A stretch of DNA of 64,000 nucleotides from an uncultured Colwellia sp. GTDB taxonomy: Bacteria; Pseudomonadota; Gammaproteobacteria; Enterobacterales; Alteromonadaceae. The notes below the pieces were generated by a model. It did no database searches. It was not told where the DNA came from and was given only the letters and a program-made list of their open reading frames with translations. The DNA is taken from the NCBI GenBank assembly GCA_913062815.1, contig CAJXWZ010000010.1, forward strand, positions 1-64,000, given 5' to 3'. Shown piece after piece: positions 16,153 to 46,599 of this stretch (positions are counted from its first letter, which is position 1; every line of letters starts with the position of its first letter). The position numbers were made by a program, and so were the translations under genes.

Positions 16153-16282
16153 AAAATACCATTAGCACATAAATAAAGGATTATTATATCCAATATGGAA
16201 ACGGTTATTGACTGTTTTTCGTTATTTTTTTCAACAATGAAAAACTATACTCAATAAACTACATCCAAAAACGAGTTATTCA

Positions 16283-17008: not shown

Positions 17009-17012
17009 TGCA

Positions 17013-21844: not shown

Positions 21845-22296
21845 CGATATTCCTTTATTTAAACTGCGTTCTGATACAAAAAAAGGATTCTAGCATTTAA
21901 ATCTAAAAGTCCAACAATAAAACATTAACAAATTGTTAACCAATACAATGTGAGGCACAAATAACCTAACTAACCATTTTACTTCAAGCGATATAGGCTT
22001 AAATTCAAATAAAAAATGCACTTAGCCTAGTAATTGGATAGAAGTAATAGAAAGTAATAGAAAGTAATTAATAGCTTCTATTGTTGTCTATGAGTCTAAA
22101 GAAGCCATTTTGATTCCAATATTTATAATAATTTAACTTTATCAATTGCTTCATAAAACTAAAAAACGCTTGATTTCCATTAGAATAACGCCAACAATGA
22201 TAACGCTAACATGATTTTATTTTAATCATTGATTACTAGCAATTAACCATTGAATTTATGTCTAAAAACACAACGATCTATGTGGGGACCCATAAA
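21845..22296. promoter_or_regulatory. Intergenic region with tandem repeat and operator
   Basis: This 452-bp AT-rich region lies between divergent genes. It holds three tandem copies of a 10-bp unit (AGAAAGTAAT-like, about 22040-22070) and one LacI-type palindrome at 22198-22211, 86 bp before the first gene of the xylan locus. I see no gene in it. Confidence 0.5.
22198..22211. promoter_or_regulatory. Predicted LacI operator (site 1)
   Basis: TGATAACGCTAACA matches the palindrome shared by ten sites in the locus. It lies 86 bp upstream of the ADP-ribosylglycohydrolase-fold lipoprotein. Confidence 0.65.
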
Positions 22297-23955
22297 ATGT
22301 ATAAATTAGTGTTTCTTTTACTCGCCACAGCTATATTTTTAGGATGCCAGACCACACCCAAAGCCATATTGATAGACCGTAGCGAATACAAAGATAAGTT
22401 AAGAGGGTTTTGGCTTGGTAGCTGCATTGCCAATTGGACAGGCTTAAAAACCGAGCTTCTCAGAAATGAGAAGCCTTTTTTCACTGATGCGGATTGGCAA
22501 ACAAATCAAGGGCGAAATAATGAGGTGATTGATTTTGTGCTCGACCAGCACCCTTGGAAATCAGATGATGATACCGATATTGAGTATGTATATCAGGCAG
22601 CTATAGAAAAGTACGGAACTCACCTTTTAAGTCCTGAACAAATACGTGATACGTGGAATGATCATATAGGTAAACCTTACCTATGGGTATCGAATTTGGC
22701 AGCCTCGGGACAAATGCTTGATGGTGCAGTACCTCCGGCAACTTCTCTTCCAGTAAATAACCCTATGTGGGAAATGATCGACGCACAACTCACTACCGAA
22801 ATTTTTGGGGCATTAGCACCGAGTCGTCCAGATGTTGCTCTAGACATGGCACACCTTCCAATTCGAACTACCGCCTATACACATTCTGAATGGGCCGCTG
22901 AATTTTATGTCATTATGTACTCATTAACGGCTAATGTAGACAAAACGCTTTCACATAAAGCGCAAGTTTTTTGGTTAGCAGCCCAAGCAAGAAAAAGGAT
23001 TCCTGAATGGTCTTACATTGCAAAAATGTATGACTTTATTAAAAACGAATATGAACATAATCCTGACAAAGACAATTGGGAGCATACCCGAGACGCTCTA
23101 TTTGAACGCTATCAGGTAGCACGTGAAGATGGCTATGATCGTTATTCCCTAGTTGATTCTGGTATTAACTTTGCGAGTTCTTTAGTGAGTTTATTTTATG
23201 GGGAGGGAGACTTCAAAAAAACCATTCGCATTGGCACACTATCGGGTTGGGATTCAGACAACCCTACGGCTACTTGGGGCGGCTTATTAGGATTACTTTA
23301 CGGACATGAGGAATTAGAAAAAATATTTCATAAATATGATTTTTCTGACGCTTATTGGATAGATCGCACCCGTCCGAAACTTGCTCGCCCTACTGATTCA
23401 ATAACCGACATGGCAGAAAGAGCACTCGTTATTATTGACAAGGTTGTTACTCAATCAATGAACGGCGCTATCAGTGATAATCATTGGATAATACCTCAGC
23501 CAGACAATATCATTAAAAAATCAACCATCGCAAAGCCTAAAACCGCATGGCATGCTATTGATGATGCTGATAGCCGTTGGAAATTCGATGGTTTCGAAAC
23601 CCAAGGTATTCATTATCAAAACAGCCTAGGAAATTTAGCTTACGGCTTTGAAACCTGTCAAGCTGACATTGCTTTTTCTGGCACTGCGGTAGCATTTTAT
23701 GCAGACAAACGAATCGATGCCGGTGATATTTTTATATCACTAGATGGTGGTATCCCAACTCGAGTATCTCAAAAATCCTCATTTGTTGCGGGCCAAAATT
23801 TTATGCTTCAATACAAGCGGTTAAACCTCAAAGACACGATTCACACACTCTCAATAACCTGTGACAATACGCCTTTAACGAAAACTATCGATATGATTGC
23901 ATTTATTCCAGGGGAATTCCCACAACCAAAAACGACTTACCCAAGAAATAAATAA
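22297..23955 (+). CDS. ADP-ribosylglycohydrolase-fold lipoprotein
   Basis: The protein has 552 residues from the ATG at 22297, preceded by GGGGA; the frame runs back to 22258. A lipobox (AIFLGCQTT, Cys near 17) predicts membrane anchoring. Residues about 25-390 match the DraG/ADP-ribosylglycohydrolase fold: YKDKLRGFWLGSCIANWTG at the start, WKSDDDTDIEY for the first metal-binding Asp cluster, and GWDSDNPTATWGGLLGLLYG for the second. Residues 420-550 form a beta-rich, jelly-roll-like C-terminal domain. Cytosolic family members remove ADP-ribose; an exported one in a polysaccharide locus more likely acts on a glycan or glycoside, but this is inference. A LacI-type operator lies upstream, tying it to the xylan regulon. 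Confidence 0.75.
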   Translation: MYKLVFLLLATAIFLGCQTTPKAILIDRSEYKDKLRGFWLGSCIANWTGLKTELLRNEKPFFTDADWQTNQGRNNEVIDFVLDQHPWKSDDDTDIEYVYQAAIEKYGTHLLSPEQIRDTWNDHIGKPYLWVSNLAASGQMLDGAVPPATSLPVNNPMWEMIDAQLTTEIFGALAPSRPDVALDMAHLPIRTTAYTHSEWAAEFYVIMYSLTANVDKTLSHKAQVFWLAAQARKRIPEWSYIAKMYDFIKNEYEHNPDKDNWEHTRDALFERYQVAREDGYDRYSLVDSGINFASSLVSLFYGEGDFKKTIRIGTLSGWDSDNPTATWGGLLGLLYGHEELEKIFHKYDFSDAYWIDRTRPKLARPTDSITDMAERALVIIDKVVTQSMNGAISDNHWIIPQPDNIIKKSTIAKPKTAWHAIDDADSRWKFDGFETQGIHYQNSLGNLAYGFETCQADIAFSGTAVAFYADKRIDAGDIFISLDGGIPTRVSQKSSFVAGQNFMLQYKRLNLKDTIHTLSITCDNTPLTKTIDMIAFIPGEFPQPKTTYPRNK

Positions 23956-24232: not shown

Positions 24233-26179
24233 TCAGTAGGCGGTTGTACACATTGACCGAAGTAACTTATTAAATGACAAGCACAGAATAATTAGTAAAC
24301 CTATACTAATGCTGCCCCCGCCAGAGCTTTCTGGTTCATTTACTTGCTCAATTGGAGTTGGTGCAGGAACAGGTGCAGGAGTACTATCATCAGGTATCGG
24401 TGTGGTAATTAACTGGACATAGTCAACATTCATTGCTGTATCACCTGCGTCAAACTGTACTGTCATTGAAGAGTTTTCATCAATGGGTGTCTTTAATACC
24501 ACATAGCTATAATCGGATTCCCAAGCACCTGTTGGCGCAAAACTCAACGAATGTTTCTGGTCATTAATATAGATTGATATCGTCCCGGCTAATTCAGAGG
24601 CATAACGTAAAGTGACTTTTTCTGATTGTGGTAAGTCGCTATGGGTAAATCCTGAGCCTGCAGTATAAATATAGGCGACCCCAGAGCCATTTGAAGCATC
24701 ATTATCATTGTATATTTGGGCATCACCGGTAAACATAGCATTTTCCGCTTCTAACCGTTTGATGTTTTCATCCCCCCCCTGAATAGTGATTCTATCAAGG
24801 ACAGTCGTGACACCGCCTAATTCGTCGCTAGCAACAACTCTTAGCTGATGTTCACCTGCTTCAAGATTTGTAAGAGACCAGCTAAAAGGTGGTTGGCTAA
24901 TAGAAGAAATCAATTGCTCGGTGATTTCTTCCCCGCTTAAAGGGGTAAGCTGATGATAAAGTGCCACTGAGGTCACTTCTCCATCGCTGTCTGATGCATT
25001 AGCAATTATGTCTACATTTTCACCCCTGTTTTGTATAGCTACAGGTACAGAAAGTGTTAATTCTGGCGAAAGGTTGCTAGTAACCTGGTTATATCCCAAT
25101 AATTCAAAGAGCTCATCGCTGGCTTGATGAAATTTTTCAATGCTTGTTGCTTCAAGCCAACGTTGCTTAATATCCTCGTTTGCTTGAACTCTTGAATCGC
25201 CCCAATACCCTTCAGGACTACCTATACCATCGTTAGGGTTCCAACGAGTTTGACTGTCCCAATCGGCGTTTATATAAGTAATAGCTTTGACATTGTTGTT
25301 TTCATCTTTGATAAAGTCAAAATAAGGCTGATACCACTCATCCCAAATAGCCTCAGCAGTCTTGCTTTGTTTATTCGAACCATTGGCGCCGTCACTTGAA
25401 TAGCTCAATTCGCCTATTTGATAACGTTGCGGTGATGACTCGTTAATAAATAAAGGCTTATTATGATTTCTGGCAAACTGCGCCGCTTCATTAACGCGCT
25501 CAAAGTTACAGTCTTGTGGTGAAAACCAACTTAAGCCAACCCAGTCAACATAGTCATCGCCTGGCCAAAGAGCTTCTAATCCAGCCTGTCCCGCAGGATT
25601 GGGACAATAAGAAGATACCTGCCATACTAGAGATATACTGTCCTGAAATCCCAGCTCTGCAATTTGACCATGCACGTATTGAAAGGTGCTAATTACACCA
25701 CTATTGCTGTGATTATTCCACGGACCGTCAACTTCATAGGCCCAACGCAAATATACAGGCCGCTGATAACTCGCCAAGGTTTTGAGTAAAATATCAATAT
25801 TATTATTGTAATGACCGGCAGCAACATCGTCGATAACGCCATTCATAGAAACACCAACAACCAGAGTAGAATTAGGGTATTGATTTGCCAGTTCAGCGAT
25901 ATTATTTCGACCAGCTCCAGCCTCTGCATTAGATGTCAATCCGCCAAGTGAGTTGATGCCTATGTAATTAGTAACCCCTCCGGCAACGACATTGATACTG
26001 TCATGATAATTATTTATACTATCAACGTCTTGACCTATGCTCAGTAGCACGCCTTGTTCTGGCGCTAAATCGGCGGCTTTGGTGCTGAGCGAAAACAATA
26101 AAAACGTCACGCTCACAAAGGCTAAGCCCAACTTGTAAAAGCGCGATGTTATATCTTGGTAGGGTGAACTATGAAGCAT
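24233..26179 (-). CDS. Exported GH26 endo-beta-1,3-xylanase-type enzyme with C-terminal modules
   Basis: The protein has 648 residues. A signal peptide (residues 1-35) precedes a GH26 (beta/alpha)8 domain at about 38-350. The likely acid/base is Glu149 in [12 protein letters not shown] and the nucleophile is Glu247 in [10 protein letters not shown]; the opening [14 protein letters not shown] resembles characterised marine beta-1,3-xylanases rather than GH26 mannanases. An Ig-like domain (about 372-470, [10 protein letters not shown]) and a CBM6/35-like module (about 475-605, RLEAENAMF, then MNVDYVQLI) follow. A Pro-rich linker and a GGGS-hydrophobic-Arg tail end the protein, resembling GlyGly-CTERM. 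An operator lies 164 bp upstream. Substrate preference needs assay; beta-1,3-xylan is the best guess. Confidence 0.85.
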
Positions 26180-26342: not shown

Positions 26343-26356
26343 TGTTAGCGTTATCA
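26343..26356. promoter_or_regulatory. Predicted LacI operator (site 2)
   Basis: TGTTAGCGTTATCA is a close match to the shared palindrome. It lies 164 bp upstream of the GH26 start at 26179 and just beyond the terminator of the lipoprotein gene, where a promoter for GH26 would be expected. Confidence 0.65.
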
Positions 26357-26409: not shown

Positions 26410-26440
26410 AAAAAAAACCACCTTCAATTGAAGGTGGTTT
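26410..26440 (-). terminator. Palindromic terminator after the CCG-repeat lipoprotein
   Basis: AACCACCTTCAA and its exact complement form a 24-nt palindrome at 26416-26439. On the minus strand a run of T follows. It lies 46 bp beyond the lipoprotein stop, and the GH26 operator and start lie on its other side. Confidence 0.8.
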
Positions 26441-26485: not shown

Positions 26486-29272
26486 TTATTGATAAAATCC
26501 AAAATGTAAGCCCGTACCTGCGGCAAAATCACCGATTGGAGTTATGGTGATCACGTCACCTTCAGCCAACATAGTGCCTACGTCTAAGAAAAATATTGAT
26601 GGTGAACCAAAGTTGGTATTTTCCCAGTCACCCGAGTTTTGTACTGGAGTGATAGTACCAACAGCGTCGCCATTAAGTGTTACAGCAACACCAAGTGCCG
26701 CGCCACCATTGTCGCCAACAGCAAGGCTTAAACCAACAACACTTGAACCAACACCAGCGGCTGGCACGGTTATTTGCACAATATCGCCATTACCAGTAAA
26801 GCCGCCCATTAGACCATTATCTAAAACTGTAGGGCCAGTTACGCCACAACAATTGCCTTCATCGGTATCGTTGCCAATAAAGCTTTCAGCTGGTAATGAA
26901 GAAAAAGGGAATTGTGTTAGTGCTGCATAAGCATTGCCATAATAACCAAAGTGCAAACCAGTACCAGCGGCAAAGTCTGAACTAGGCGTTACTGTGATTA
27001 CATCACCTTCTACTAACGGAGTATCTAAGGTTAAGAAGAAAGTATTAGCAGCGCCTGCGTAGGTGTTTTCCCAGTCGTCTGAATTACGAACCGGAGTGAT
27101 AACACCAACGGCATCGCCATTAACCGTAACGTCTACGCCAAGTGCAGCACCGCCATTATCGCCAACGGCTAAACCTAAACCTATGGTAGTAATACCATCG
27201 GCGGCAGCCGGCACTGTAATTTGTACAATATCGCCATTGCCAGTATAACCACCCATCAGACCATTATCTAAAATAGTAGGGCCTGTTACGCCACAACAGT
27301 TACCTTCATCGATATCGTTACCAATAAAGCTCTCTGCTGGTAGTTGGTTTAAGGCAAATTCCATTTGAGTTGCGATATAAAAGCCGAAGTGCAAACCTGT
27401 ACCTGCGGCAAAGTCTGAGCTCGGCGTTACTGTGATTACATCACCTTCTGCTAATGGTGCGTCAAATACCAAGAAGAATGTTCCAGGTGAATTTGCATTA
27501 ATGCTTTCCCAGTCACTTGAGTTTTGCGAAGGCATGATAGTGCCGGCATCGTCACCGTTTAAGGTTACATCAACACCAAGTGCAGCACCGCCATTGTCGC
27601 CAACAGCAAGTCCAATACCAAATACATCTAGTCCAGCAGCATCTGCAGGTACCGTAATTGTGACTACGTCACCGTTGCCAGTAAAGCCGCCCATTAAACC
27701 GTTGTCTAATACGGTAGGACCAGTAACACCACAACAGTTACCTTCATCGATATCGTTTCCAACTAGGTTTTCTGCAGGCAAACTACCAAAGTCTGACTTC
27801 ACTACTGCTTTATAAGTATTATCGCCAGCAAGGCCAGTATCTTCTGCAGGCTCTTCTGGTTCTTCTGGAACTTCTGGAACTTCTGGCGTTTCGTCTTCAC
27901 CCGTCGCTGGTAGATAAAAACCTAACGATATACCAACACCTGCTGAAAATTGACTATCTACCATAAAGGTAACAATTTGTCCTGCTGCTAAAGGCATATC
28001 AAGCGTTACAAAAGCAGTAGGTATTGCACCTTCAAGATGTGCGGTCCAGTTGCTATCAGCATTACCATGAATGAATATAGTTGCAACATCTTCACCGTCA
28101 ACGAATACCGACATAGAGCCTGTACTCGTAGCACCTCGAATATAAGTAAAACCAACAACCGATAAACCATCAGCGGCGTCAGGTACCATTACGCTAAAGC
28201 CATCACCTTCACCGTCAAGACCACCTAAATTGCCTTCTTCGTTTAAGAAAGGATCTGGGCCACAACATTCTGAAACACCGTTACCGATAATCTCATAAAT
28301 AGCACCTTCATCAGCCAATATTAGCTCAGCCACTAGTTGTGGCGGTCTGCCATTAGGTATTAAATCAGCTATTTTCCAATTTTCGATCTCTGCGCCAAGA
28401 AAATCACCAACGCCTTGATCGCCAGCGTAAAAATATAAAGGTTCGTCGTTAATAGTGACTTGTAGCGAGCCGTCTAAGCGAGTAATAGTACTAACACTAC
28501 CGCTGCTAAAAGGTACGACATGCTCTGTTGTTGGAACGGTATAAGCGGGCCAATCAACGGAACAGTCTGCATCACAAGCACTTTCGCCTTCGACTTTATC
28601 TTCGTCAAAAGTATATAAGGTTTTTCCTTCGATGCTCGAAGTATTACCTGAGACCAAGTACTTAAAGTATTCCTTGTCGTAAAAACCCAATGAATCAAGG
28701 TTTCCGGCCGTAAAATCACCGTCAGCAAGTACAGTAACCACTTGGCCAGCGGCTAATTCGCCCACTTCAAGGTAAACCGTAGGCGTACCGCCTTCTGCTA
28801 ACGTTGCCCAATCACCAGAATTAACGACTGGTATTAGGTTGCCAACGGCTACATCATCGATAAGCACCGTCATCGAACCTTCGGTATCACCTGCGCGGAA
28901 ATAACTTAAGCCAACATAAGTTGCACCGGCACCATCTTCGGGTACCACAACACTGACACCATCACCTGCTCCGGTGATACCGTCTACTCGCGTATCGACA
29001 ACCGCTGGCTCGCCGCAACATTCACTAACATTGTTGCTGATCAAGGTGGCAACGCCATCTTCTTCAAGTTCCAAAACGGCAGCTGCAACCATTTCTGCAG
29101 GATTTATTGTACCCTCGGTATCGGTTAATAACATAAGGTTTGTGGTAGCTATAGTTACCGGTGGAGTTTCAAGGTTAGGAGTTGTGTCACCTCCTCCACA
29201 CGCAGTTAAAGCGAAGGAAATAATTCCTAAGCTAAAATATTTTAATGGATTATTGCCATATGCTTTATTCAT
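26486..29272 (-). CDS. Lipoprotein with five Cys-Cys-Gly beta modules; candidate surface glycan-binding protein
   Basis: The protein has 928 residues. The lipobox is ALTACGGG (Cys25). Five modules of about 115-130 residues each carry a Cys-Cys-Gly motif at residues 85-86, 336-337, 513-514, 659-660 and 808-809, and end in SLGFY or HFGFY. The last three modules are nearly identical and share NDIDEGNCCGVTGPT. Between modules 1 and 2 (about 205-305) lies a Lipoprotein_15-like segment (GKTLYTFDEDK, then WKIADL). An acidic Pro/Glu linker follows module 2. It is very acidic, has no catalytic motif I recognise, and starts 166 bp downstream of the TonB receptor, as a substrate-capture partner would. 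A ribosome site AAAGGA precedes the ATG. Function is inferred from context; the modules could be CBM31-like or a new family. Confidence 0.75.
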   Translation of the reverse strand: MNKAYGNNPLKYFSLGIISFALTACGGGDTTPNLETPPVTIATTNLMLLTDTEGTINPAEMVAAAVLELEEDGVATLISNNVSECCGEPAVVDTRVDGITGAGDGVSVVVPEDGAGATYVGLSYFRAGDTEGSMTVLIDDVAVGNLIPVVNSGDWATLAEGGTPTVYLEVGELAAGQVVTVLADGDFTAGNLDSLGFYDKEYFKYLVSGNTSSIEGKTLYTFDEDKVEGESACDADCSVDWPAYTVPTTEHVVPFSSGSVSTITRLDGSLQVTINDEPLYFYAGDQGVGDFLGAEIENWKIADLIPNGRPPQLVAELILADEGAIYEIIGNGVSECCGPDPFLNEEGNLGGLDGEGDGFSVMVPDAADGLSVVGFTYIRGATSTGSMSVFVDGEDVATIFIHGNADSNWTAHLEGAIPTAFVTLDMPLAAGQIVTFMVDSQFSAGVGISLGFYLPATGEDETPEVPEVPEEPEEPAEDTGLAGDNTYKAVVKSDFGSLPAENLVGNDIDEGNCCGVTGPTVLDNGLMGGFTGNGDVVTITVPADAAGLDVFGIGLAVGDNGGAALGVDVTLNGDDAGTIMPSQNSSDWESINANSPGTFFLVFDAPLAEGDVITVTPSSDFAAGTGLHFGFYIATQMEFALNQLPAESFIGNDIDEGNCCGVTGPTILDNGLMGGYTGNGDIVQITVPAAADGITTIGLGLAVGDNGGAALGVDVTVNGDAVGVITPVRNSDDWENTYAGAANTFFLTLDTPLVEGDVITVTPSSDFAAGTGLHFGYYGNAYAALTQFPFSSLPAESFIGNDTDEGNCCGVTGPTVLDNGLMGGFTGNGDIVQITVPAAGVGSSVVGLSLAVGDNGGAALGVAVTLNGDAVGTITPVQNSGDWENTNFGSPSIFFLDVGTMLAEGDVITITPIGDFAAGTGLHFGFYQ
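26489..27790 (-). repeat. Three near-identical coding repeats of about 440 bp
   Basis: The DNA coding for modules 3 to 5 repeats at high identity. Landmark CCACAAC occurs at 26844, 27291 and 27729, giving spacings of 447 and 438 bp, and again at 28260 in the diverged module 2. Copies of this length can recombine, so copy number may vary among strains. Confidence 0.7.
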
Positions 29273-29438
29273 AATTTATTCCTTTGTCTCGAGTTATTAT
29301 TATATTTCGAGATTAAATGATATTTGATCGGCTTAACAAACCTGAATTCCATCGTTAACCGATTTAGTGAGAATTACTAACATCTTCACTTCACTCATTA
29401 GGGTTGAGTAATACTTACTACAACCCTGTTTTAAATTT

Positions 29439-32309
29439 TTAGAAGGTATATCGCATGCCAACGTTATATCTTGCACCGTATTGACGAGCATGGAGTAGCT
29501 GCTCTTCATATCGGCCATAGATACGCTGTGTTTCTTCGGTGATATTGAGTCCTTCGACAAAAACGGTGAACTTTTCTGTCACTTCATAGCTAGCACTTAC
29601 ATCCCATTGTCCATATTCTTCAGTATATTGTGGGTTGTTTGGCCCACCTTCTTGTTGACCAATGGCAGATAAAAACTCATCACGCCAGTTATAGGCTATA
29701 CGAGCTTGTAAGCCATCTTTGTCATAAAAGGCGACGAAGTTAGCCGAATCACTTAAGCCCGGTAAGGCAAATTGAACACCCGTTTTTGCATTGTCATAGC
29801 CAACATCACCATTGACGATAGTGAAATTGACCATACCGCCAAAACCAGACTCGCCAAACATATGCTGAATGGCAAACTCCCAACCGTCGATGGCCACAGT
29901 CTCGCCATTAGTGGGTACATTAATATCCCAAACGACGAGTTCATCGGTAGCATCACCGATTATTGTGGTGGCATCACCTTCCTGATTCTCGATCATACGA
30001 TCAAAGATATTTCCTTCGGTTAGCTGGATACCTTCGTCAGTAAGTTGCTGTCTGGCCAAGTCACTACGAGCACCATTGTGGGGATCATAAAGTCCATCAA
30101 TAGTTTCCTCTACTACCGAGGTAACTAAGAAGTTTTCCACATCTTTACTGTAGTAACCAACAGACATATAACTGGCTTCTCCGTAATAATATTCTAACGA
30201 TAAATCAATATTATCAGCGGTATAAGGTAATAGATCTGGGTTACCACGATAACCGTTACGGGCACCGACTTTAGGGTTACCAGAAATTGATGTGGTCCCA
30301 CGCATTGCGGAAAGATTGTTACGAGTTACCGTGCGACTATAGGAAAAACGAGTCACTAAATCATCGGTCAATTCAACACTGACATCTAAACTAGGCAGGA
30401 ACAATTTATAATCGGTATTAACATCGGTATAGATGCTGTCTGCTGCAACAATGGTTCTAAATTCAGTTGACGACTCCCACTCAACGTAAAGGGGGTCTTG
30501 TGCTAAACTGCTGGCGTTAACATCGGTGGCTTCATAACGCATGCCAGCAACGGTAGTAATTAGCAGGCCGTTAAATTCAGACTCAAAGTTAAATTGTATA
30601 TAAGCGCTGGTGGTTTCTTCAGCAACGGTATGATCTTCATCCCATGCTCCTGGACTGAAATTGATACCTAAGCCAGCTTCAGCTTGTTGTAATGCTGTTG
30701 CGGCATTATAGCTGTAATAATAGGGTAAGACACTACCGGTGAATTCGGTAAATAAGCCGTTGGTGCCTTTTTTCTGGAAGATACCATTGTCAAAAAAAGC
30801 ACTGTCTGAATCGGTTGCGACATTGTAAAAGGTGTTAGCGAATTTAGAACGGGATGACATTTCAACAAAACCGACGCCAAACTCTATGCTAGCTAAATCA
30901 CTGTCACCATCGTTAACCCACATACCGTCCATTCGAGCCTGTTCAATATCTGTTCTCATCGCACTGGCGTTAGCGATAGCAATATTTGAAGTAAGTTGGT
31001 CTGGCGTTACCTCAGTGGTTATGTCGATAAAGTCGAGATCTAGCGTCGGTACTTCATTACCATTAATATCAAAAGATTTACCGTCTAGCGCAGCGCCCAT
31101 GATGATAAAGCTGTTGTTGCCATCTTCTAAACCTTTCGATTCAGCCGATGAATCATGATAATCAAAAGTAAGACTGAAAGTATCATTTACTTGCCATTCG
31201 ATATTTAAACCTAAAGAATTATTTTCATTACCTGAGCTATTGCCATAAGCAAAATAATCCATAGTGCCCGCGGCTTCATCTAAATAAGTTGTGGTGCCAT
31301 TTTCATTAATAACGACTTCATTGACATTACCGCCACCGTTAAACCATACGCCAAAGTGATCTCTATCACTGCTAGTTTCATTTTCGGCATAAGTATACTC
31401 AAGTGTTGCGGTAACATTGTTGACTGGTTGATACTGCAACACTACCTGTGCATTGGTTCGTTCTCGCTCGATATCACCAACATCATATTTATAGTTACGC
31501 GGCAGCCAAGTATTACCATCTGGATTTAGGTTATTGTCAGTGACCATAGCATTACTCAAATCACCAAGGCTGTTGGTGCGCCAACCAGAAACTTCGGCAT
31601 TTTGCTCACGTGAGTCACGTTTTTGATAAGAGCCGCTTACCATGATACCAAAAGTATTATCGGCAAACGTATTGCTAAATAATCCAGACAATTCCGGTGT
31701 TACATCGTCACCTTCTTCAACAGTTGTATCCATCACTGCTTTACCACCTAATGATGCCTTCAAACCAGGATTATCGAGAGGGCGACCAGTGACGATATTA
31801 ATGGTGGATCCGATACCACCACTAGGGTTAGCGGCACGGCCTGTTTTATATATTTCTACCGCACTAACACTTTCTGATGCCAAGTTTGCAAAATCAAAAG
31901 AACGAGTAGCAGGAGCACCCGTTTGTCCCATTGCGGCGGTAGGCATTTGACGGCCATTTAAGGTAACTAGGTTAAAGTTGGGACCAAAGCCACGCACAGT
32001 GACATGGCTACCTTCATTATTTGATCGATCTATGGAAACACCAGATATGCGCTGTAAAGACTCAGCAAGGTTAGTATCAGGGAATTTTCCCATGTCTTCG
32101 GCAGATATAGCATCAACCACGCCGTGAGCTTCACGTTTAATATCCATGGCTTTGACCATACTGGCTCGAATACCGGTTACCTCTATAACCTCGATATTTT
32201 CATCCTCATGGCTACTTTCTGCTGCATAGGCTGGTGTTAGTGCCCCTGCACTTAAAACAAGAGATAAACTCTTAGCTAAGTGTGTCTTATTAAATAATCT
32301 ACTTTTCAT
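29439..32309 (-). CDS. TonB-dependent outer-membrane receptor for (oligo)xylan
   Basis: The 956-residue receptor has a signal peptide (SLVLSAGALTPAYA), then a plug domain at about 40-170 with IEVTGIRASM, EDMGKFPDTNLAESLQRISGV and VTVRGFGPNFNLVTLNGRQ. A 22-strand barrel follows and ends in the outer-membrane signature Phe (GMRYTF). The pattern belongs to the TonB-dependent receptors of oligosaccharide loci (TIGR01782-like), not siderophore receptors. AAGGGATAAG precedes the ATG. Operators lie at 32380-32393 and 32543-32556 upstream, and the CCG lipoprotein follows on the same strand. It is the probable energy-dependent importer of xylo-oligosaccharides. Confidence 0.88.
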   Translation of the reverse strand: MKSRLFNKTHLAKSLSLVLSAGALTPAYAAESSHEDENIEVIEVTGIRASMVKAMDIKREAHGVVDAISAEDMGKFPDTNLAESLQRISGVSIDRSNNEGSHVTVRGFGPNFNLVTLNGRQMPTAAMGQTGAPATRSFDFANLASESVSAVEIYKTGRAANPSGGIGSTINIVTGRPLDNPGLKASLGGKAVMDTTVEEGDDVTPELSGLFSNTFADNTFGIMVSGSYQKRDSREQNAEVSGWRTNSLGDLSNAMVTDNNLNPDGNTWLPRNYKYDVGDIERERTNAQVVLQYQPVNNVTATLEYTYAENETSSDRDHFGVWFNGGGNVNEVVINENGTTTYLDEAAGTMDYFAYGNSSGNENNSLGLNIEWQVNDTFSLTFDYHDSSAESKGLEDGNNSFIIMGAALDGKSFDINGNEVPTLDLDFIDITTEVTPDQLTSNIAIANASAMRTDIEQARMDGMWVNDGDSDLASIEFGVGFVEMSSRSKFANTFYNVATDSDSAFFDNGIFQKKGTNGLFTEFTGSVLPYYYSYNAATALQQAEAGLGINFSPGAWDEDHTVAEETTSAYIQFNFESEFNGLLITTVAGMRYEATDVNASSLAQDPLYVEWESSTEFRTIVAADSIYTDVNTDYKLFLPSLDVSVELTDDLVTRFSYSRTVTRNNLSAMRGTTSISGNPKVGARNGYRGNPDLLPYTADNIDLSLEYYYGEASYMSVGYYSKDVENFLVTSVVEETIDGLYDPHNGARSDLARQQLTDEGIQLTEGNIFDRMIENQEGDATTIIGDATDELVVWDINVPTNGETVAIDGWEFAIQHMFGESGFGGMVNFTIVNGDVGYDNAKTGVQFALPGLSDSANFVAFYDKDGLQARIAYNWRDEFLSAIGQQEGGPNNPQYTEEYGQWDVSASYEVTEKFTVFVEGLNITEETQRIYGRYEEQLLHARQYGARYNVGMRYTF

Positions 32310-32379: not shown

Positions 32380-32393
32380 GGTTAGCGCTATCA
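32380..32393. promoter_or_regulatory. Predicted LacI operator (site 3)
   Basis: GGTTAGCGCTATCA lies 70 bp upstream of the receptor start and matches the shared palindrome except at the first base. Confidence 0.65.
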
Positions 32394-32542: not shown

Positions 32543-32556
32543 AGTTAACGCTAACA
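32543..32556. promoter_or_regulatory. Predicted LacI operator (site 4)
   Basis: AGTTAACGCTAACA lies about 235 bp upstream of the receptor start. Its 163-bp spacing from site 3 would allow looping by a LacI tetramer or two dimers; this is inference. Confidence 0.55.
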
Positions 32557-32849: not shown

Positions 32850-32879
32850 ATGAAAATGCTTAGAGTTAGCAATGAATAA
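32850..32879 (+). other. Nine-codon mini-ORF overlapping the lacI start
   Basis: ATG at 32850 follows TAGGA and reads nine codons to a TAA that overlaps the lacI ATG at 32872. It may couple translation of the regulator to its leader. Length gives no coding statistics. Confidence 0.3.
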
Positions 32880-33906
32880 AGATAAAAAATCACGTTTACA
32901 GGACGTGGCGAAACATGCAGGCGTTTCTATGATGACCGTATCGAGAGTACTTAACCAAAATGGTATGGTGAGTGAAAAAACAAAGACAAAAGTACAAGCG
33001 AAGCTAAAAGAGTTAAATTATCAGCCCAATGTCTCTGCACGTCGTTTGGCAAGTAATAAGTCGTTCTTTTTAGGATTGTTATACGATAATCCTAGTGCAT
33101 CCTATGTTAGTCAATTTTTATTAAGTAGCCTTAAACTTTGTCGAGATTGCGGTTACCACCTTGTCGTTGATGAAGTCGATAAAAGTCTTACTAAAAACTT
33201 AGAATCAGTTGCCGAGCTTATTAATATTACCCAGGTTGACGGTCTAATATTGCTGCCTCCGGTTTGTGACATTGCGGAAATACTTGAAACTCTAATGGCT
33301 GCTAACATCCCATTTGTTCGAGTTTCGCCAAACGCTCAATTGAACGTTTCACCCTATGTTTGTATGGATGATTATCAGGCAGCATTCGAAATTACAGAAC
33401 AGTTGATTCAACAGGGGCATGTTAATATCGCTCATATCATTGGCCACCCTGATGTTGGAGCAAGTCGTTTACGTTACCAAGGCTTTCTTGACGCGTTAAG
33501 ATCAAACAAAATTAATATCCCACCTGAATATATTGAGCAAGGTTTTTTCACTTATAAGTCAGGATTAAGTGCTACGCAAAAATTGTTATCCTTAAACAAT
33601 CGACCGAGTGCTATTTTTGCCAGTAATGATGATATGGCAGCGGCAGCGATTTCAGCCGCCCATATGAAAAACATACCAGTTCCAACTGCACTATCGGTTG
33701 TAGGCTTTGATGATACTCTTCTCGCTAGTACAGTTTGGCCTCATATATCAACAGTGAGACAGCCTATTAAAGAAATGGCAAAAGTGGCTGTTGAATTACT
33801 GGTTTCGGGTAAATTTGATGACCCAGCTAACCTCAAAAGATCTGACTTGCGCCACGTCTTAGACTTTGAAATTATACAGCGTGAGTCTAGTACCGGAATA
33901 AGTTAA
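32872..33906 (+). CDS. LacI-family regulator of the xylan locus (copy 1)
   Basis: The 344-residue protein has an N-terminal HTH (RLQDVAKHAGVSMMTVSRVLNQNGMVS), a hinge YQPNVSARRLAS, and a sugar-binding periplasmic-protein-like domain with FASNDDMAAAAISAAH and VVGFDDTLLAS. It is a clear paralogue of the LacI protein at 46755-47792, sharing most of the HTH and long runs in the effector domain (for example MDDYQA and GASRLRYQG). It lies between the receptor and the second GH26 gene. It probably binds the TGWTARCGYTAWCA sites and is released by xylose or a xylo-oligosaccharide; the effector is inferred. Confidence 0.88.
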   Translation: MNKDKKSRLQDVAKHAGVSMMTVSRVLNQNGMVSEKTKTKVQAKLKELNYQPNVSARRLASNKSFFLGLLYDNPSASYVSQFLLSSLKLCRDCGYHLVVDEVDKSLTKNLESVAELINITQVDGLILLPPVCDIAEILETLMAANIPFVRVSPNAQLNVSPYVCMDDYQAAFEITEQLIQQGHVNIAHIIGHPDVGASRLRYQGFLDALRSNKINIPPEYIEQGFFTYKSGLSATQKLLSLNNRPSAIFASNDDMAAAAISAAHMKNIPVPTALSVVGFDDTLLASTVWPHISTVRQPIKEMAKVAVELLVSGKFDDPANLKRSDLRHVLDFEIIQRESSTGIS

Positions 33907-34356: not shown

Positions 34357-35541
34357 ATGATGAAGAATAGGCTTTCCTCTGTAATGGTATTTTCTTTTTT
34401 TATGCTGGTAGATTTTTGTGCGTGGGGGCAAAGCCAACAACATACCAGCTCTGAAGTAGCAACTGATGACAAGTTAGGGAAATTTGAGCCTCCGGCTAAC
34501 AAAGTCCTACTTTTTATAGGTCAAGACTCGGATACCATTAGCGATTATATTTCAACAGTGCCCGAAGATAATGTTGAAGGAGTAACGCTTTACAGCGAAC
34601 TCAAAAGCGCTCATCCCAAAAAAACCTTAAAAGCAATGTTTACTCCTGACTTCTGGCAATCAGGAACAGTAGATTTCAGTAAAACGCTTACTGAATCACC
34701 TAATGCAGCTGTTGCGATTGGTTTAGCACTTGATAACTGTAATCAGGAAAACCATGAGGCTAATATCGCCAATGGCCTATACGACCTAACGATTGCCGTT
34801 ATGGTAAAACATTTAAAATCATTAGCGCCTCGCAAGGTGTTCTTGCGCATAGGATACGAATTTGACGGCCCTTGGAATTGTTATACACCAGATAATTACA
34901 AATTGGCGTTTCAAAGAATAGCGAAAGCTATCACCAAGCAGCATGCCGAAAATATTGCTACCGTGTGGCAATCAGCTTCGTGGCCTGATAGTTACGGTAA
35001 TCCTATTTATGACACTGGTTTAGACAATCATCTAGATAATTGGTACCCCGGGGACGAGTACGTTGATTGGGTAAGTATGTCAGTATTTTATCGTGATCTT
35101 TCTCAATGGAACTACGTCCCTCCCCTTACACCGGCTAAAGGACAAGAAAACATATTATCTTTCGCTAGGCAGCACAAAAAGCCGGTGATGATTGCCGAGT
35201 CAGCGCCGCAAGGCTTTCGTATCGCAGCGTTAACCAATAGTGTTATTCAAGAAAACAATCCAAAACCTGTAACGGCAAAAGATATTTGGCAGGGTTGGTA
35301 TCAACCCTACTTTGATTTTATTTATGCCAACAATGATGTTATTCGAGCAGTGGCTTATATCAATACGCATTGGGACTCTCAAGGGATGTGGCAATGCAAA
35401 TCAGGTATTGCCGCAGGAAGACCCGGCTGTTCGCAAGGAAATTGGGGCGATAGTCGCATTCAAGCGAATGACTATATAAAAGCACGTTGGTTAAACCAAG
35501 TGACTAATAGCGATTATTGGATGCAAACCAGTAATTACTGA
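34357..35541 (+). CDS. Exported GH26 enzyme, beta-1,3-xylanase-like (second)
   Basis: The 394-residue protein has a signal peptide (VFSFFMLVDFCAW) and a single GH26 domain. The opening LLFIGQDSDTISDY parallels that of the other GH26 protein here, with predicted acid/base Glu168 (LRIGYEFDGPWN) and nucleophile Glu281 (VMIAESAPQG). It lacks the Ig-like, CBM-like and C-terminal sorting segments of its relative, so it may be freely secreted or periplasmic and act on shorter chains. It heads a four-gene plus-strand run with GH43, PhyH and a GH-A hydrolase. Two operators precede it. Confidence 0.85.
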   Translation: MMKNRLSSVMVFSFFMLVDFCAWGQSQQHTSSEVATDDKLGKFEPPANKVLLFIGQDSDTISDYISTVPEDNVEGVTLYSELKSAHPKKTLKAMFTPDFWQSGTVDFSKTLTESPNAAVAIGLALDNCNQENHEANIANGLYDLTIAVMVKHLKSLAPRKVFLRIGYEFDGPWNCYTPDNYKLAFQRIAKAITKQHAENIATVWQSASWPDSYGNPIYDTGLDNHLDNWYPGDEYVDWVSMSVFYRDLSQWNYVPPLTPAKGQENILSFARQHKKPVMIAESAPQGFRIAALTNSVIQENNPKPVTAKDIWQGWYQPYFDFIYANNDVIRAVAYINTHWDSQGMWQCKSGIAAGRPGCSQGNWGDSRIQANDYIKARWLNQVTNSDYWMQTSNY

Positions 35542-35570: not shown

Positions 35571-37187
35571 ATGAGTAAAATTATTAACCCAATATTGACA
35601 GGGTTTAATCCTGATCCAAGTATTCTTAGAGTTGAGGATGATTATTATATTATCACCTCTACTTTTGAATGGTTTCCTGGCTGTCAAATTCATCACTCGA
35701 AAGATTTGATGAACTGGCAACTCATTACACGACCTCTAGAGCGAGTATCCCAATTGGATATGAGAGGCGTTCCCGATTCTTGTGGTGTTTGGGCGCCTTG
35801 CTTGAGTTACCATGAAGGGGTGTTCTACCTGATTTATGCCAATGTTAAAAGCTTCGATGGTGAGTGGAAAGATACCCCTAATTACTTAGTTACCGCAACA
35901 AATATCAAAGGTCCTTGGTCTGAGCCTACATTCATCAATGCTAGTGGCTTTGATGCGTCATTATTTCATGATGATGATGGTAAGTCTTACTGTCTAAATA
36001 TGCTAATGGACCATCGCAATGGCAAATTTTTTGGCGGAGTTGTTTTACAAGAGTTTGATAAAGAGACAAAGCAATTAATCGGTAAAATACATCATATTTT
36101 TGCAGGCACTGAGCACGGTCGAACCGAAGGGCCTCATATATACAAACGTAATGGTTATTATTACTTATTGACCGCTGAGGGCGGTACAAGTTACGAACAC
36201 TGCATGACCTTAGCACGTGCCAAGTCGATTACTGGCCCCTATGAAATTCATCCAGAAAACCCTCTCATTACCGCTAAAAACTTTCCTAATAACTATCTAC
36301 AAAAAACTGGCCATGGAGATTTTGTTGAGACACAAAATGGTGAATGGTACGCTGTTTTTCTTACCGCAAGACCGTTAACTAAACTGGGTCGATGTATCAC
36401 AGGACGAGAAACAGCCATAGAGAAAGTTGAGTGGCGCGATGATGATTGGCTTTACCTCACTTGTGGTGTTCACCTTGCTCGTAAAGAAGTTGAAGCGCCA
36501 GCACTTCCTGAACATAAATTCTTAAAAGCGAGCAGTAAGTTAACCTTTAACGATGCAGAAATAGACATCAACTTTCAGGCGCTAAGGGTGCCATTAAGCA
36601 AAGATTGGGTTAATCAAACCGACCGTCCAGGTTACCTCCGGCTTTATGGCCGAGAATCTCTTAGCTCGCGTTTCGAGCAGAGCCTGATCGGGCGAAGGGT
36701 TCAAGCCCATCATACCAGTGCTGAAACTTGCCTTGAATTTAACCCTGATAACTTTCAGCAAATGGCTGGATTGGTTTGTTATTACAACACAGTTCATTAT
36801 CATTACTTGCATGTTTCTGGTGATGACTTGGGCGCCTATTCGGGCAAAAAGTACCTGACTATTTTAAGTTGTGATGATCATAAAACGACTCAGCCCAATC
36901 AGACGCCGATTGACATTACCGGCGCAAGTAAAGTTTACTTAAAAGCTGACTTTGATGGTGCACGATTGCAATTTTTCTATGCTTTGCTTGCTGGCGATTG
37001 GCGCAAAATTGGGCCAGTTCTTGATGGTAGCATTTTGTCTGATGACTATGTTGAACATGCAGAAAGGCATTTCCACCCGTGTTTTACTGGTGCTTTTTAT
37101 GGACTTGCTTGTCAAGATCTTAGTGGTCAAAAGCTCGAAGCAGATTTTGAATACTTTAATTACCAAGAAAAACCAAAATACCTTTAA
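35571..37187 (+). CDS. Cytoplasmic GH43 beta-xylosidase
   Basis: The protein has 538 residues, the usual size for GH43 beta-xylosidases of the Selenomonas SXA type (subfamily 11). No signal peptide is present. The five-bladed propeller carries Asp15 (FNPDPS, general base), Asp128 (GFDASLFHD, pKa modulator) and Glu186 (TEGPHIYKR, general acid). A C-terminal beta-sandwich (about 330-538) completes the active site in the family. It releases D-xylose from the non-reducing end of short xylo-oligosaccharides after import. It lies 29 bp after GH26. Activity on beta-1,3 as well as beta-1,4 links is untested. Confidence 0.9.
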   Translation: MSKIINPILTGFNPDPSILRVEDDYYIITSTFEWFPGCQIHHSKDLMNWQLITRPLERVSQLDMRGVPDSCGVWAPCLSYHEGVFYLIYANVKSFDGEWKDTPNYLVTATNIKGPWSEPTFINASGFDASLFHDDDGKSYCLNMLMDHRNGKFFGGVVLQEFDKETKQLIGKIHHIFAGTEHGRTEGPHIYKRNGYYYLLTAEGGTSYEHCMTLARAKSITGPYEIHPENPLITAKNFPNNYLQKTGHGDFVETQNGEWYAVFLTARPLTKLGRCITGRETAIEKVEWRDDDWLYLTCGVHLARKEVEAPALPEHKFLKASSKLTFNDAEIDINFQALRVPLSKDWVNQTDRPGYLRLYGRESLSSRFEQSLIGRRVQAHHTSAETCLEFNPDNFQQMAGLVCYYNTVHYHYLHVSGDDLGAYSGKKYLTILSCDDHKTTQPNQTPIDITGASKVYLKADFDGARLQFFYALLAGDWRKIGPVLDGSILSDDYVEHAERHFHPCFTGAFYGLACQDLSGQKLEADFEYFNYQEKPKYL

Positions 37188-37221: not shown

Positions 37222-37932
37222 ATGATAAACGTACAAGCATATGCAAAACAGTTTTGGCAAGAGGGCTTTATTCATATTGAAAATTTTTTCTCTGCTGAAT
37301 TAGTTGACTTATATAATGAAAAAATTATTGAACACTTTGGTATGACACCAGACTTTGCTCATACCGATGAATTCATCAAAAAGTCTGCCGTTGAAGTCAT
37401 CCCTTGGTTTCCGCAACGAGAAGGCGTTAAATGTTTTGACACCGTCAGCGAAGATAAAACGTTACGTGCATTGACTCAAGCCATTTTAGGGCATGACTGG
37501 TATGAACAATATTCAATGGTAATGTTTTCGAAACAAGGTACCGTTGGACAAGCTTGGCATCAAGATTGTTTACCAACTGATCCAAAACAATTTAATATCA
37601 ATAGGCTCGTGTACACCATGGATATTGACCAAGCATATACTGGTGGACAAACCATGGTCATGCCTGGTTCTCATAGGCAGGGATTAATACCTTCACCAAC
37701 AGATGCATTTGACCAATCAAAAGCCGAAATACTAAGCCCCAAAAAAGGCAGTTTAGTGCTCCTTCATGGTCATTGTTTTCACATGGTAAAACCTGTTACA
37801 GGAAAGTATCGTGTATCTACTAACTACCGAGTAGCGCCTAAAGGTACACCCGAAAATATTACTGATATTGGTATTTATAGAAATATGATTTATCAGTTTT
37901 CTACCCAAAGCGTACTAGAAGAAAGAAATTAA
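37222..37932 (+). CDS. PhyH-family Fe(II)/2-oxoglutarate dioxygenase
   Basis: The 236-residue cytoplasmic protein has the phytanoyl-CoA dioxygenase fold. The iron facial triad is His113 and Asp115 (AWHQDCLP) plus His187 (HCFHMVKP), and Arg197 is the likely 2-oxoglutarate anchor (KYRVSTNYR). The family hydroxylates diverse small substrates. It lies 34 bp after GH43 and 51 bp before a GH-A hydrolase, so it is within the xylan operon. A role on a modified or methylated xylose, or on a reducing-end group, is possible but not shown. Confidence 0.78.
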   Translation: MINVQAYAKQFWQEGFIHIENFFSAELVDLYNEKIIEHFGMTPDFAHTDEFIKKSAVEVIPWFPQREGVKCFDTVSEDKTLRALTQAILGHDWYEQYSMVMFSKQGTVGQAWHQDCLPTDPKQFNINRLVYTMDIDQAYTGGQTMVMPGSHRQGLIPSPTDAFDQSKAEILSPKKGSLVLLHGHCFHMVKPVTGKYRVSTNYRVAPKGTPENITDIGIYRNMIYQFSTQSVLEERN

Positions 37933-43748: not shown

Positions 43749-43771
43749 TTTATAAAACTTAATAATTGATT

Positions 43772-45235
43772 ATGTATTTAGGCATTGATTTAGGCACTTC
43801 AGGTGTAAAAGTTATCATACTTGATGATAACGATACGTTAGTCGCACAAGCATCTTCAGCACTTGAGATCAGCCGTCCTGCCCCTCTTTGGTCAGAGCAA
43901 GACCCAAGCACTTGGTGGCAAGCAACTAAACTAGCAATGGAAGAGATTAAAGCTGCACATAGTGACTGTCTCGCTTCGGTGACCGCAATCGGTTTATCGG
44001 GGCAAATGCATGGTGCCACTCTTCTTGATGCTAATAACAACATCATTCGCCCTGCGATCTTATGGAATGACGGGCGAAGTGAGAAACAATGTAAAACCAT
44101 AGAAGCCAAAGAGCCTGCTACACGTTCTATCACCGGTAACATTGCTATGCCTGGTTTTACTGCCCCTAAATTGGCTTGGTTAAAAGAGCATGAGCCAGAC
44201 TGTTTTAACTGCGTTGCTAAAGTGCTATTACCGAAGGATTACCTGCGTTTTCTCATGACAGGTGATTTTGCTTCCGACATGTCAGACAGCGCTGGCACCT
44301 TATGGCTTGATGTTGAACGCAGACAATGGTCGACGCAAATGTTAGCTGCGACAGATTTAACACTTGAACAGATGCCAACATTGTATGAAGGCACTGAGAT
44401 TACGGGTTACTTAAGTGAAGAAATAGCAACACGTTGGGGTATGAGCAAAGTTCCAGTGATTGCCGGTGGCGGTGACAATGCCGCCGGTGCAGCTGGTATT
44501 GGTGTGATTAATCCCAATGAAGCGTTTCTATCACTTGGCACTTCTGGCGTTTACTTTGTTGCCAATGAAACCTATAACCCGAACCCAGACAGCGCAGTGC
44601 ACACTTTTTGTCATTGTGTACCGAATACCTGGCATCAAATGGCTGTAGTGCTAAGTGCAGCAAGTTGTTTAACTTGGGTCACTGAGCTGACTGGATATAA
44701 AGATGAGAAGAGTTTATTAGATGAAGTTGAAAAGCTCGACTTTTCCACACCTTCACCGCTTATTTTCTTACCTTATTTATCAGGTGAAAGAACCCCACAC
44801 AACAACCCTAATGCCCAAGGTGTATTCTTTGGTTTAGGCCATAACACCACAGCTGCAGAGCTAGGTAGAGCAGTGTTAGAAGGCATTGCTTTTGCTTTTG
44901 CTGACGGTCAACAAGCCCTCGTCGCCGCAGGTACTCAAATAGAGCAAGTATCAGTCATTGGTGGCGGCTCTCGTAGCAAACTATGGGGAAAAATTCTCGC
45001 CAGTGTGCTCAACAAACCACTAACGTATCGTAAAGGCGGAGAAGTGGGTCCTGCATTGGGCGCGGCACGATTAGCTAAAATAGCCGTAAACAACCTTAAT
45101 GCAAGTGATGTATGTGTTGCTAGTGGAATAGACCATGTAATTGAGCCAGACCAATGCATGGTCAACTATTACCCTGCACAACACCTTAAATTTCAACAAC
45201 TTTATCACAGTGTAAAAGCGCACTTTCAAACTTAG
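43772..45235 (+). CDS. xylB: Xylulokinase
   Basis: The 487-residue FGGY kinase starts at the ATG at 43772; a TTG two codons earlier is an alternative. It opens with the phosphate-binding YLGIDLGTSGVKV. IGLSGQMHG and ILWNDGRS are typical of xylulokinases, and a glycine-rich AGGGDNAAGAAG segment is conserved. It phosphorylates D-xylulose to xylulose 5-phosphate with ATP. xylA follows by 47 bp, so transcription as xylBA is likely. Both are controlled by site 9. Confidence 0.93.
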   Translation: MYLGIDLGTSGVKVIILDDNDTLVAQASSALEISRPAPLWSEQDPSTWWQATKLAMEEIKAAHSDCLASVTAIGLSGQMHGATLLDANNNIIRPAILWNDGRSEKQCKTIEAKEPATRSITGNIAMPGFTAPKLAWLKEHEPDCFNCVAKVLLPKDYLRFLMTGDFASDMSDSAGTLWLDVERRQWSTQMLAATDLTLEQMPTLYEGTEITGYLSEEIATRWGMSKVPVIAGGGDNAAGAAGIGVINPNEAFLSLGTSGVYFVANETYNPNPDSAVHTFCHCVPNTWHQMAVVLSAASCLTWVTELTGYKDEKSLLDEVEKLDFSTPSPLIFLPYLSGERTPHNNPNAQGVFFGLGHNTTAAELGRAVLEGIAFAFADGQQALVAAGTQIEQVSVIGGGSRSKLWGKILASVLNKPLTYRKGGEVGPALGAARLAKIAVNNLNASDVCVASGIDHVIEPDQCMVNYYPAQHLKFQQLYHSVKAHFQT

Positions 45236-45282: not shown

Positions 45283-46599
45283 ATGAGCCAATTTTTTGAA
45301 AACGTAAGCAAAATTCCATTCGAAGGTCCTGATAGCACTAACCCATTAGCCTTTCGTTATTATGACGAAAACCAAGTAGTCCTGGGTAAAACCATGAAAG
45401 AACATTTACGTTTTGCTACCTGCTATTGGCATAACTTCTGTTGGACGGGCTCAGATATCTTTGGTGCAGGTACCTTTGATCGTCCTTGGTTACAACCAAC
45501 AGGTAATCAATTAGCGTTTGCGGAGCAAAAAGCAAAAGTTGCCTTTGAGTTTTTTGAAAAGTTAGGAACACCTTACTTTTGTTTTCATGATGCAGATATT
45601 GCTCCTGAAGGTAATTCATTAAAAGAATTTCATGCCAATGTAAATCACATTGCTAACATCTTTGAAAAAGAAATGGACCGTACTGGTATTAAGCTTTTAT
45701 GGGGTACTGCTAATTTATTTTCAAATGCACGTTTTTGTGCCGGTGGCTCTACCAACCCGAACCCTGAGTTATTTGCCTATGCAGCCGCACAAGTTAAACA
45801 TGCTATGGATGTTACTCACAGACTCGGTGGTGAAAACTATGTGCTATGGGGTGGTCGCGAAGGTTACGACAGCTTATTAAATACCAACCTGAAGCAAGAA
45901 GGTGAACAATATGCTCGCTTCTTAAAAATGGTTATCGAACATAAGCATAAAATTGGCTTCAAAGGCACATTACTGATTGAACCTAAACCTCAAGAGCCAA
46001 CCAAACATCAATATGATTATGATACCGCAACCGTGTCTGGTTTTTTACATAAACACGGCATACATAATGAAGTGAAAGTGAATATCGAAGCGAACCATGC
46101 CACCTTGGCTGGACACAGCTTCCATCATGAAATTGCTACAGCGTGTGCAGAAGGCATTATGGGTAGTATCGATGCGAACCGCGGAGATATGCAAAATGGT
46201 TGGGATACCGATCAATTCCCTAACGATGTTGCTGAATGCACTTTAGTTATGTATGAAATCTTGAAAAATGGTGGTTTCGACACAGGTGGCTTTAACTTCG
46301 ATACTAAGTTACGTCGTCAATCATGTGAGCGTGATGATTTATTTATTGGCCATGTTGGAGGTATGGATACTATGGCGAAATCATTACTCAATGCGGCTAA
46401 ATTAATAGCGGATGCTCCCCTTAGTGATTTTGTTGCTAATCGCTATGCTGGTTGGCAAGACAACTTAGGCCAAAGTATCTTAACAGGCGATCACAACTTA
46501 GAAAGTTTATCGAAACTGGTGCTTGAGAACAATATCAACCCTAAGCATGTTTCCGGCCGTCAAGAGTTACTTGAAAACATAGTAAACCGCTACATTTAA
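45283..46599 (+). CDS. xylA: Xylose isomerase
   Basis: The 438-residue protein has the length of class II xylose isomerases. His102 and Asp105 ([12 protein letters not shown]) are the catalytic pair, with [23 protein letters not shown] and [11 protein letters not shown] supplying metal ligands. TAGGAGAACAAC precedes the ATG. It converts D-xylose to D-xylulose in the cytoplasm with divalent metal. It is cotranscribed with xylB. Confidence 0.95.

Follow-up and report, generated by a model that had tools for sequence, protein, structure and literature searches.

What is the function of a large lipoprotein that is encoded next to a TonB-dependent receptor and carries one pair of adjacent cysteines in each of its repeated modules? 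The question is raised by a 64,000-nucleotide stretch of DNA from an uncultured Colwellia sp. (assembly GCA_913062815.1, contig CAJXWZ010000010.1, positions 1 to 64,000; hereafter, the window), in which an open reading frame (ORF) of 928 amino acids follows a receptor gene (29439-32309) on the same strand at a distance of 166 bp, an arrangement that a first-pass annotation had reported accurately. The glycan-capture role which that annotation proposed is supported by the predicted fold, the gene order, the regulon signals, and the synteny of the locus. We think it probable, if far from certain, that the protein is a surface glycan-binding lipoprotein whose modules have the fold of carbohydrate-binding module (CBM) families 6 and 35 and which acts beside the TonB receptor of a beta-1,3-xylan locus.

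Architecture of the lipoprotein

The gene and its parts, in the order of the protein, are as follows (CC, adjacent cysteines; pLDDT, predicted local distance difference test).

26486..29272, minus strand: CC-module lipoprotein gene, 928 amino acids (ORF in the window)
29198..29272, minus strand: signal peptide, residues 1-25, with a lipobox-like end at Cys25 (read from the sequence)
28676..29137, minus strand: CC module 1, residues 46-199, CC at 85-86
28358..28660, minus strand: Lipoprotein_15 (PF03640) domain, approximately residues 205-305, with a C-x3-C pair (233, 237)
27914..28351, minus strand: CC module 2, residues 308-453, CC at 336-337
27821..27913, minus strand: Pro/Glu-rich linker, residues 454-484 (read from the sequence)
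27377..27820, minus strand: CC module 3, residues 485-632, CC at 513-514
26930..27376, minus strand: CC module 4, residues 633-781, CC at 659-660; the module that was folded (pLDDT 86, CBM6/CBM35 fold)
26489..26929, minus strand: CC module 5, residues 782-928, CC at 808-809

By eye, the N terminus (LTAC-GGGD) is lipobox-like and closes the signal peptide. The five CC pairs, at residues 85, 336, 513, 659, and 808 and each followed by Gly, are just as first described; the only other cysteines of the protein are Cys25 and the Lipoprotein_15 pair (233, 237). The last three modules had been called almost identical, an overstatement: their pairwise identities are 69.2 to 72.8%, while module 1 shares 39% with module 2, and both share 31 to 40% with the rest. 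A known domain had been missed altogether, the Lipoprotein_15 domain between modules 1 and 2, which Pfam finds at an E value of 2.3e-13 (49.8 bits versus a curated cut-off of 24.4); residues 214-309 also give a partial match, under that model's cut-off, to the NCBIfam SCO0930 lipoprotein.

Two side observations concern this gene and its known domain. The G+C content of the gene is 45.0%, versus 39.0% for the window, which perhaps merely reflects Ala/Gly-rich modules. Elsewhere, in loci L008, L010, and L012, Lipoprotein_15 shares its ORF with CBM6/CBM35 modules and DHOR (di-haem oxidoreductase-like), with a CBM56 in the L008 ORF too, and a 665-amino-acid lipoprotein-like ORF of the same genome as the window (G000:C1, L002 868-2862) has 10 matched Lipoprotein_15 stretches.

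Conservation of the modules

Scanning of genome contigs with the five modules brought out four relative loci, L041 to L044, from Alteromonadaceae DT_4 and three Colwellia. The proteins of L041 and L042 have five modules each and those of L043 and L044 three each; in the alignment, all four retain the lipobox-like start and the Lipoprotein_15 domain. Together with the window's protein, they supply a set of 21 modules, each of which has a single CC and a single Trp. The pair is followed by Gly in 14 of the 21, by Asp in 6, and by Ala in 1, so that the proposed CC-then-Gly motif holds for the five modules of the window while its Gly is not essential across the set. Other invariant columns include N20, E24, G43, G46, G48, D49, N98, F135, A137, and G138. 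The CC pattern is not a product of chance, since the pairs are nearly the sole cysteines and are kept in relatives of 43 to 74% whole-protein identity.

Predicted fold of the modules

No annotated family had been recognized for the modules. By sequence this was correct, inasmuch as searches of Pfam, NCBIfam, PHROGs, and the PDB returned no useful family match; however, the fold predicted for module 4 is a known one, a beta-sandwich jelly roll of the CBM6/CBM35 type (pLDDT 86), composed of strands only, with no helix of at least four residues. The SusD fold is mainly helical (TPR-like [tetratricopeptide repeat-like]). Membership in the SusD family, as one sense of the original "SusD-like" label, was rejected: there was no Pfam or NCBIfam match to SusD at an E value of ≤1, and the module is predicted to be all beta. 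No SusD match was found, either, among those window proteins that were scanned against the same two databases, which were not all of them.

In profile comparisons with hhalign, the module profile scored 31.4 against CBM35 and 26.4 against CBM6, with shuffles reaching at most 19.2 and a Lipoprotein_15 control 13.3 to 14.5. The deep CBM profiles were built from 26 of 30 CBM35 loci and 17 of 28 CBM6 loci; the other 4 and 11 loci were dropped for want of one continuous frame, free of stops, over the expected span. Comparison of the modules with the Big_7 Ig-like region of the neighboring gene gave 14.2, not above reversed controls. None of the 21 modules matched the CBM6 (PF03422) or CBM35 (PF16990) family model at an E value of ≤10, a test limited by the HMMER filters, which discard most matches above ~0.1. 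CBM31 (2cov) was not among the PDB profile matches at an E value of ≤5 or the 50 fold-match rows listed, an absence that excludes nothing.

Candidate sugar-binding site and the CC pair

According to PMC10284105, cleft A of CtGH11-CBM6 has Trp92 and Tyr34 stacking on a xylo-oligosaccharide, the counterparts of these residues in CtGH5-CBM6 being Phe478 and Trp424. The spacing agrees in the 2y8k chain, where the TGGF aromatic lies 54 residues past the NVGW aromatic (478 minus 424), and the 1uxz chain has the equivalent Tyr at residue 33, Trp at 92, and Asn at 121. The invariant Trp of the CC modules (W102, 21 of 21) aligns in hhalign with the first aromatic of the CBM6 TGGW motif. W102 would then be the likely, but not sure, counterpart of Trp92 in cleft A, a reservation made because the mapping depends on weak profile alignments.

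The CC pair sits 16 residues ahead of the Tyr34 position, within the lowest-confidence block of the module 4 model (block 21-30, pLDDT 61). It is possible, by analogy with sugar-binding precedents elsewhere, that the pair forms a vicinal disulfide. In the SusD protein Bt1762 (PMC7782687), the Cys298-Cys299 vicinal disulfide touches the sugar at a fructan branch point, and PMC12102755, citing Richardson et al. (2017), describes a vicinal disulfide that contacts sugar in the arabinofuranosidase 1wd4. No CBM with a vicinal disulfide was found in the literature searched, with most subscription papers outside its reach.

It is quite conceivable, at somewhat less than even chances, that the fold and glycan binding are as we propose and the pair makes no sugar contact, being structural or cross-linking neighboring modules or copies. 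The pair is invariant even where the aromatic at 44/45 varies, its loop is the part of the model predicted with the least confidence, and the vicinal disulfides of a sponge galectin pack at a dimer interface (PMC4557014). However, each repeat has one CC and no other cysteine, which leaves the pair no partner within the module, and the nearby invariant N20 and E24 suggest a functional loop. A role in metal binding or in redox chemistry with the C-x3-C pair of Lipoprotein_15 is very unlikely. It could draw on the fusion of Lipoprotein_15 to di-haem peroxidase-like domains elsewhere and on one plasmid match inside a gene annotated as plastocyanin/azurin family, but the modules contain no invariant His or Met, their only invariant cysteines are those of the CC pair, and the context is that of a xylan regulon.

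The xylan locus and its synteny

The neighbors of the lipoprotein gene are the following.

29439..32309, minus strand: TonB-dependent receptor, upstream neighbor (TIGR01782, E 6.8e-188)
24233..26179, minus strand: glycoside hydrolase family 26 (GH26) beta-1,3-xylanase (2ddx, E 1.3e-138), carrying Big_7 and, at its C terminus, a weak CBM6 under the Pfam cut-off
32872..33906, plus strand: LacI-family regulator (named by eye from the sequence)
34357..35541, plus strand: second GH26, beta-1,3-xylanase-like (2ddx, E 8e-42)
35571..37187, plus strand: GH43, beta-xylosidase-like (PF04616, PF17851)
43766..45235, plus strand: FGGY kinase, xylulokinase-like by context
45283..46599, plus strand: xylose-isomerase-like TIM barrel

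The GH26 enzyme at 24233-26179 is close to the beta-1,3-xylanase XYL4 (2ddx), and the order TonB receptor, CC lipoprotein, GH26 is found in all five loci. The profile of the 21 modules was run on genomes of the family and of the class; three family samples, of 395, 390, and 385 genomes and not quite identical, underlie the counts given here. Full module matches occurred in 5 of 395 family genomes, the own genome included. In the class sample (369 genomes) they occurred in the own genome only, with four others giving partial matches (best E value, 7.2e-5). It appears that L041 to L044 represent the other four family genomes, as the ORFs agree between G124 and L041 and the coordinates between G132 and L042; from protein length, we infer that G184 and G249 are the remaining loci. 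Outside the five genomes, weak partial matches in 2 of 118 relatives (E values of 0.009 to 0.0098), 2 of 395 family genomes (0.0036 to 0.0055), and 4 of 369 class genomes (7e-5 to 0.0097) were not counted as relatives; some of them fall within very long frames or within frames that stops interrupt. Among 120 plasmid records, the best 20 listed cover query residues 174-339, that is, Lipoprotein_15 and its edges, and include no module relatives; phages gave no match to the modules, and none of 140 stretches of viral contigs was confirmed as a module relative.

GH26 matches at an E value of ≤1e-30 are present in 8 of 390 family genomes, and the orthologs at 76 to 100% identity belong to five genomes, those with CC modules; G118 (L145), whose GH26 is 58% identical, has no module match, and its xylanase carries a CBM31 (2cov, E 1.1e-22). 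The five best receptors (65 to 100% identity) are likewise in these five genomes, the next ones standing at 48 to 52%. A constant pairing of this receptor type with such a lipoprotein was considered and rejected: at five next-best receptor loci (48 to 52%; five of six by E value, G279 being left out, and the L163 stretch ending at the contig end), the stretches taken had no CC-containing ORF of at least 180 amino acids. By eye, several of these receptors are in GH1/GH3/GH16-type loci.

Two features of the neighborhood are recorded for their own sake. The gap between the lipoprotein and GH26 genes of L041 (10444-10863) reads by eye like a short remnant of a PhyH-type gene, and genes of that type are present, by eye, at 37222-37932 of the window and in L044. 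The C terminus of the GH26 protein at 24233-26179 has a Gly/Ser-rich stretch and a hydrophobic segment, for which NCBIfam gave no match at an E value of ≤1; this ending resembles a GlyGly-CTERM anchor.

Operator-like and terminator-like sites

The following sites lie around the receptor, lipoprotein, and GH26 genes.

26343..26356, plus strand: LacI-type operator-like site upstream of the GH26 gene, 0 mismatches
32380..32393, plus strand: LacI-type operator-like site in the receptor/LacI divergent region, 1 mismatch; others at 32543 and 32765, 1 mismatch each
26415..26440, minus strand: intrinsic terminator-like palindrome (13-nt arms with 100% complementarity) with a T run behind it, immediately 3' of the lipoprotein gene

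The operator-like palindrome TGWTARCGYTAWCA occurs 15 times in the window with up to two mismatches, versus 3.87 expected, a count reached in 0 of 100 shuffles. All 10 sites with no or one mismatch are intergenic, and all 5 with two mismatches are inside genes. Those between genes are found near the receptor and LacI gene, ahead of each GH26 gene, ahead of a second LacI gene and of a member of the ADP-ribosylglycohydrolase family, and within the permease/kinase gap. In each of L041 to L044, sites with no or one mismatch are again present, including one upstream of GH26. Between the receptor and the lipoprotein the window has no operator-like site; in that gap, L042 has a site with one mismatch to a looser pattern and L041, by eye, a site with two mismatches. 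The stem of the strong terminator-like palindrome recurs by eye at the same place in L041 to L044; the L043 copy has one mismatch, and in L044 the T run is broken. The simplest reading is that receptor and lipoprotein form a dicistron and that GH26 is a separate unit of the same regulon.

This arrangement bears on another possible function of the lipoprotein, that of an adhesin for particles or a spacer at the cell surface by which the cell is held to algal debris, with co-regulation as its only tie to the receptor. Such a function would suit the variable repeat number (three of the proteins have 5 modules and two have 3), the titles of the four relatives, which bear "DT" and in one case also "ALOHA" and can be read as deep-trap particle samples, and the co-occurrence of Lipoprotein_15 elsewhere with fasciclin, thrombospondin-type, and CBM modules. 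We nevertheless regard it as unlikely, given that the receptor immediately adjoins, that the terminator-like site comes only after the lipoprotein gene, and that in the genomes sampled the gene is found only with the beta-1,3-xylan locus.

Two further observations were made on these sites. The receptor/lipoprotein gap of the window (29273-29438, minus strand) contains, after the receptor stop, a hairpin-like GGGTTG...CAACCC without a T run, which could tune receptor versus lipoprotein expression; by eye, a similar hairpin is present in L042 and not in L041, L043, or L044 (gaps of 43 to 57 bp). A perfect operator-like site (22198-22211) lies just upstream of an ADP-ribosylglycohydrolase-family ORF (22258-23955, plus strand; PF03747), and a similar gene in L044 (ORF 16002-17714, minus strand; site at 17888) has the same arrangement. 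Because the site is upstream in both, this protein seems to be part of the xylan regulon.

Proposed mechanism and its weak points

We propose that the lipoprotein, in which a single Lipoprotein_15 domain accompanies five divergent modules of the CBM6/CBM35 fold, would be anchored in the outer membrane facing out and is probably cotranscribed with the TonB-dependent receptor under LacI control. Like the SusE/F-type surface glycan-binding proteins of Bacteroidota, the modules would retain their glycan, beta-1,3-xylan or oligomers of it, close to the receptor and the GH26 xylanase, with the invariant Trp stacking on a sugar ring in a cleft A like that of CBM6, and the invariant Cys-Cys, probably as a vicinal disulfide, may add a non-polar platform at or near this cleft. 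A bolder version, which we advance tentatively and consider rather doubtful, is that the modules are a new CBM family in which an invariant vicinal disulfide joins or replaces the second cleft-A aromatic, in a SusE/F-like beta-1,3-xylan capture lipoprotein for a gammaproteobacterial TonB receptor, the pair having evolved apart from SusCD.

A number of results weigh against a surface glycan-binding lipoprotein with CBM6/CBM35-fold modules. Structure prediction gave a good module 4 and a poor full-length model (pLDDT 56.5), besides the low confidence of the CC loop, and profile comparison placed the modules above shuffles, yet an Ig-like control scored similarly. This control, Big_7 from the GH26 proteins, reached 27.7 to 28.9 (P 1.8e-4) against the same CBM profiles, the level of the modules versus CBM6, in alignments that span just 17 to 29 columns; on shallower CBM profiles it scored 23.8 and 25.5. 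No Pfam family fell under an E value of 0.12 in the 21 modules, and none listed was a CBM. Four of the 11 PDB profile matches were nanobodies, from an E value of 0.15; global alignment to CBM6 was unsuccessful; and comparison with the CBM6-like tail of the GH26 itself (five-sequence profile) gave no match (hhalign probability, 1.3). At the binding site, an aromatic occupies the Tyr34 position (44) in 9 of the 21 modules, or in 15 of them when position 45 is counted too, and 9 of the 21 have Asn at position 139, the Asn121 equivalent. An EAE motif in the N-terminal strand is the structural calcium site of CBM6/CBM35, and it is found in 0 of 21 modules in the first strand (first 22 residues); the letters EAE are present at the CC loop in 6 of 21, in L043 and L044. 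The Lipoprotein_15 domain is not accounted for. The operator pattern was derived from two sites of the window itself, so that the 15 matches do not test it independently, and terminator-like sites are not enriched across the region (11 found, 7.8 expected; standard deviation, 3.0).

Relation to known systems

The surface glycan-binding proteins of the SusE/SusF type in Bacteroidota are multimodule lipoproteins encoded beside an outer-membrane glycan receptor. By role, the CC lipoprotein may resemble them: it has a lipobox-like start read by eye and a predicted glycan-binding fold, and its gene adjoins that of an outer-membrane receptor. It differs from SusE/SusF in its modules and in a receptor of the TIGR01782 type. 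Compared with the beta-sandwich modules of CBM6, CBM35, and CBM36, the CC modules lack a Pfam match and the EAE motif of the first strand, and they carry an invariant vicinal CC and form tandem repeats in a stand-alone lipoprotein.

Bt1762 (PMC7782687) would share the use of a pair of neighboring cysteines as a non-polar surface for sugar in a lipoprotein that serves glycan uptake; there, unlike here, the scaffold is SusD and the disulfide, which we infer, was seen in a crystal. The beta-1,3-xylan locus of Vibrio sp. EA2 (PMC12125979) has the same GH26 beta-1,3-xylanases, GH43, xylose isomerase, and xylulokinase, but oligomer uptake there is mainly via an ABC transporter. The Figure 7 legend of that article lists TonB-dependent transporters (TBDTs) among the genes of beta-1,3-xylan loci, and the terms SusD, CBM, and lipoprotein are absent from its main text.

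If the titles "DT" and "ALOHA" of the relatives mean deep sediment-trap samples, the locus would tie its substrate, beta-1,3-xylan, to the carbon that sinking particles export. As a device for binding sugar, a vicinal disulfide kept invariant in a CBM fold would, if true, be unusual. To our knowledge, gammaproteobacterial TonB receptors of the TIGR01782 type are usually thought to lack a SusD- or SusE-like partner; a receptor-linked lipoprotein of CBM-fold repeats, if confirmed, would represent a second route of glycan capture at the outer membrane.
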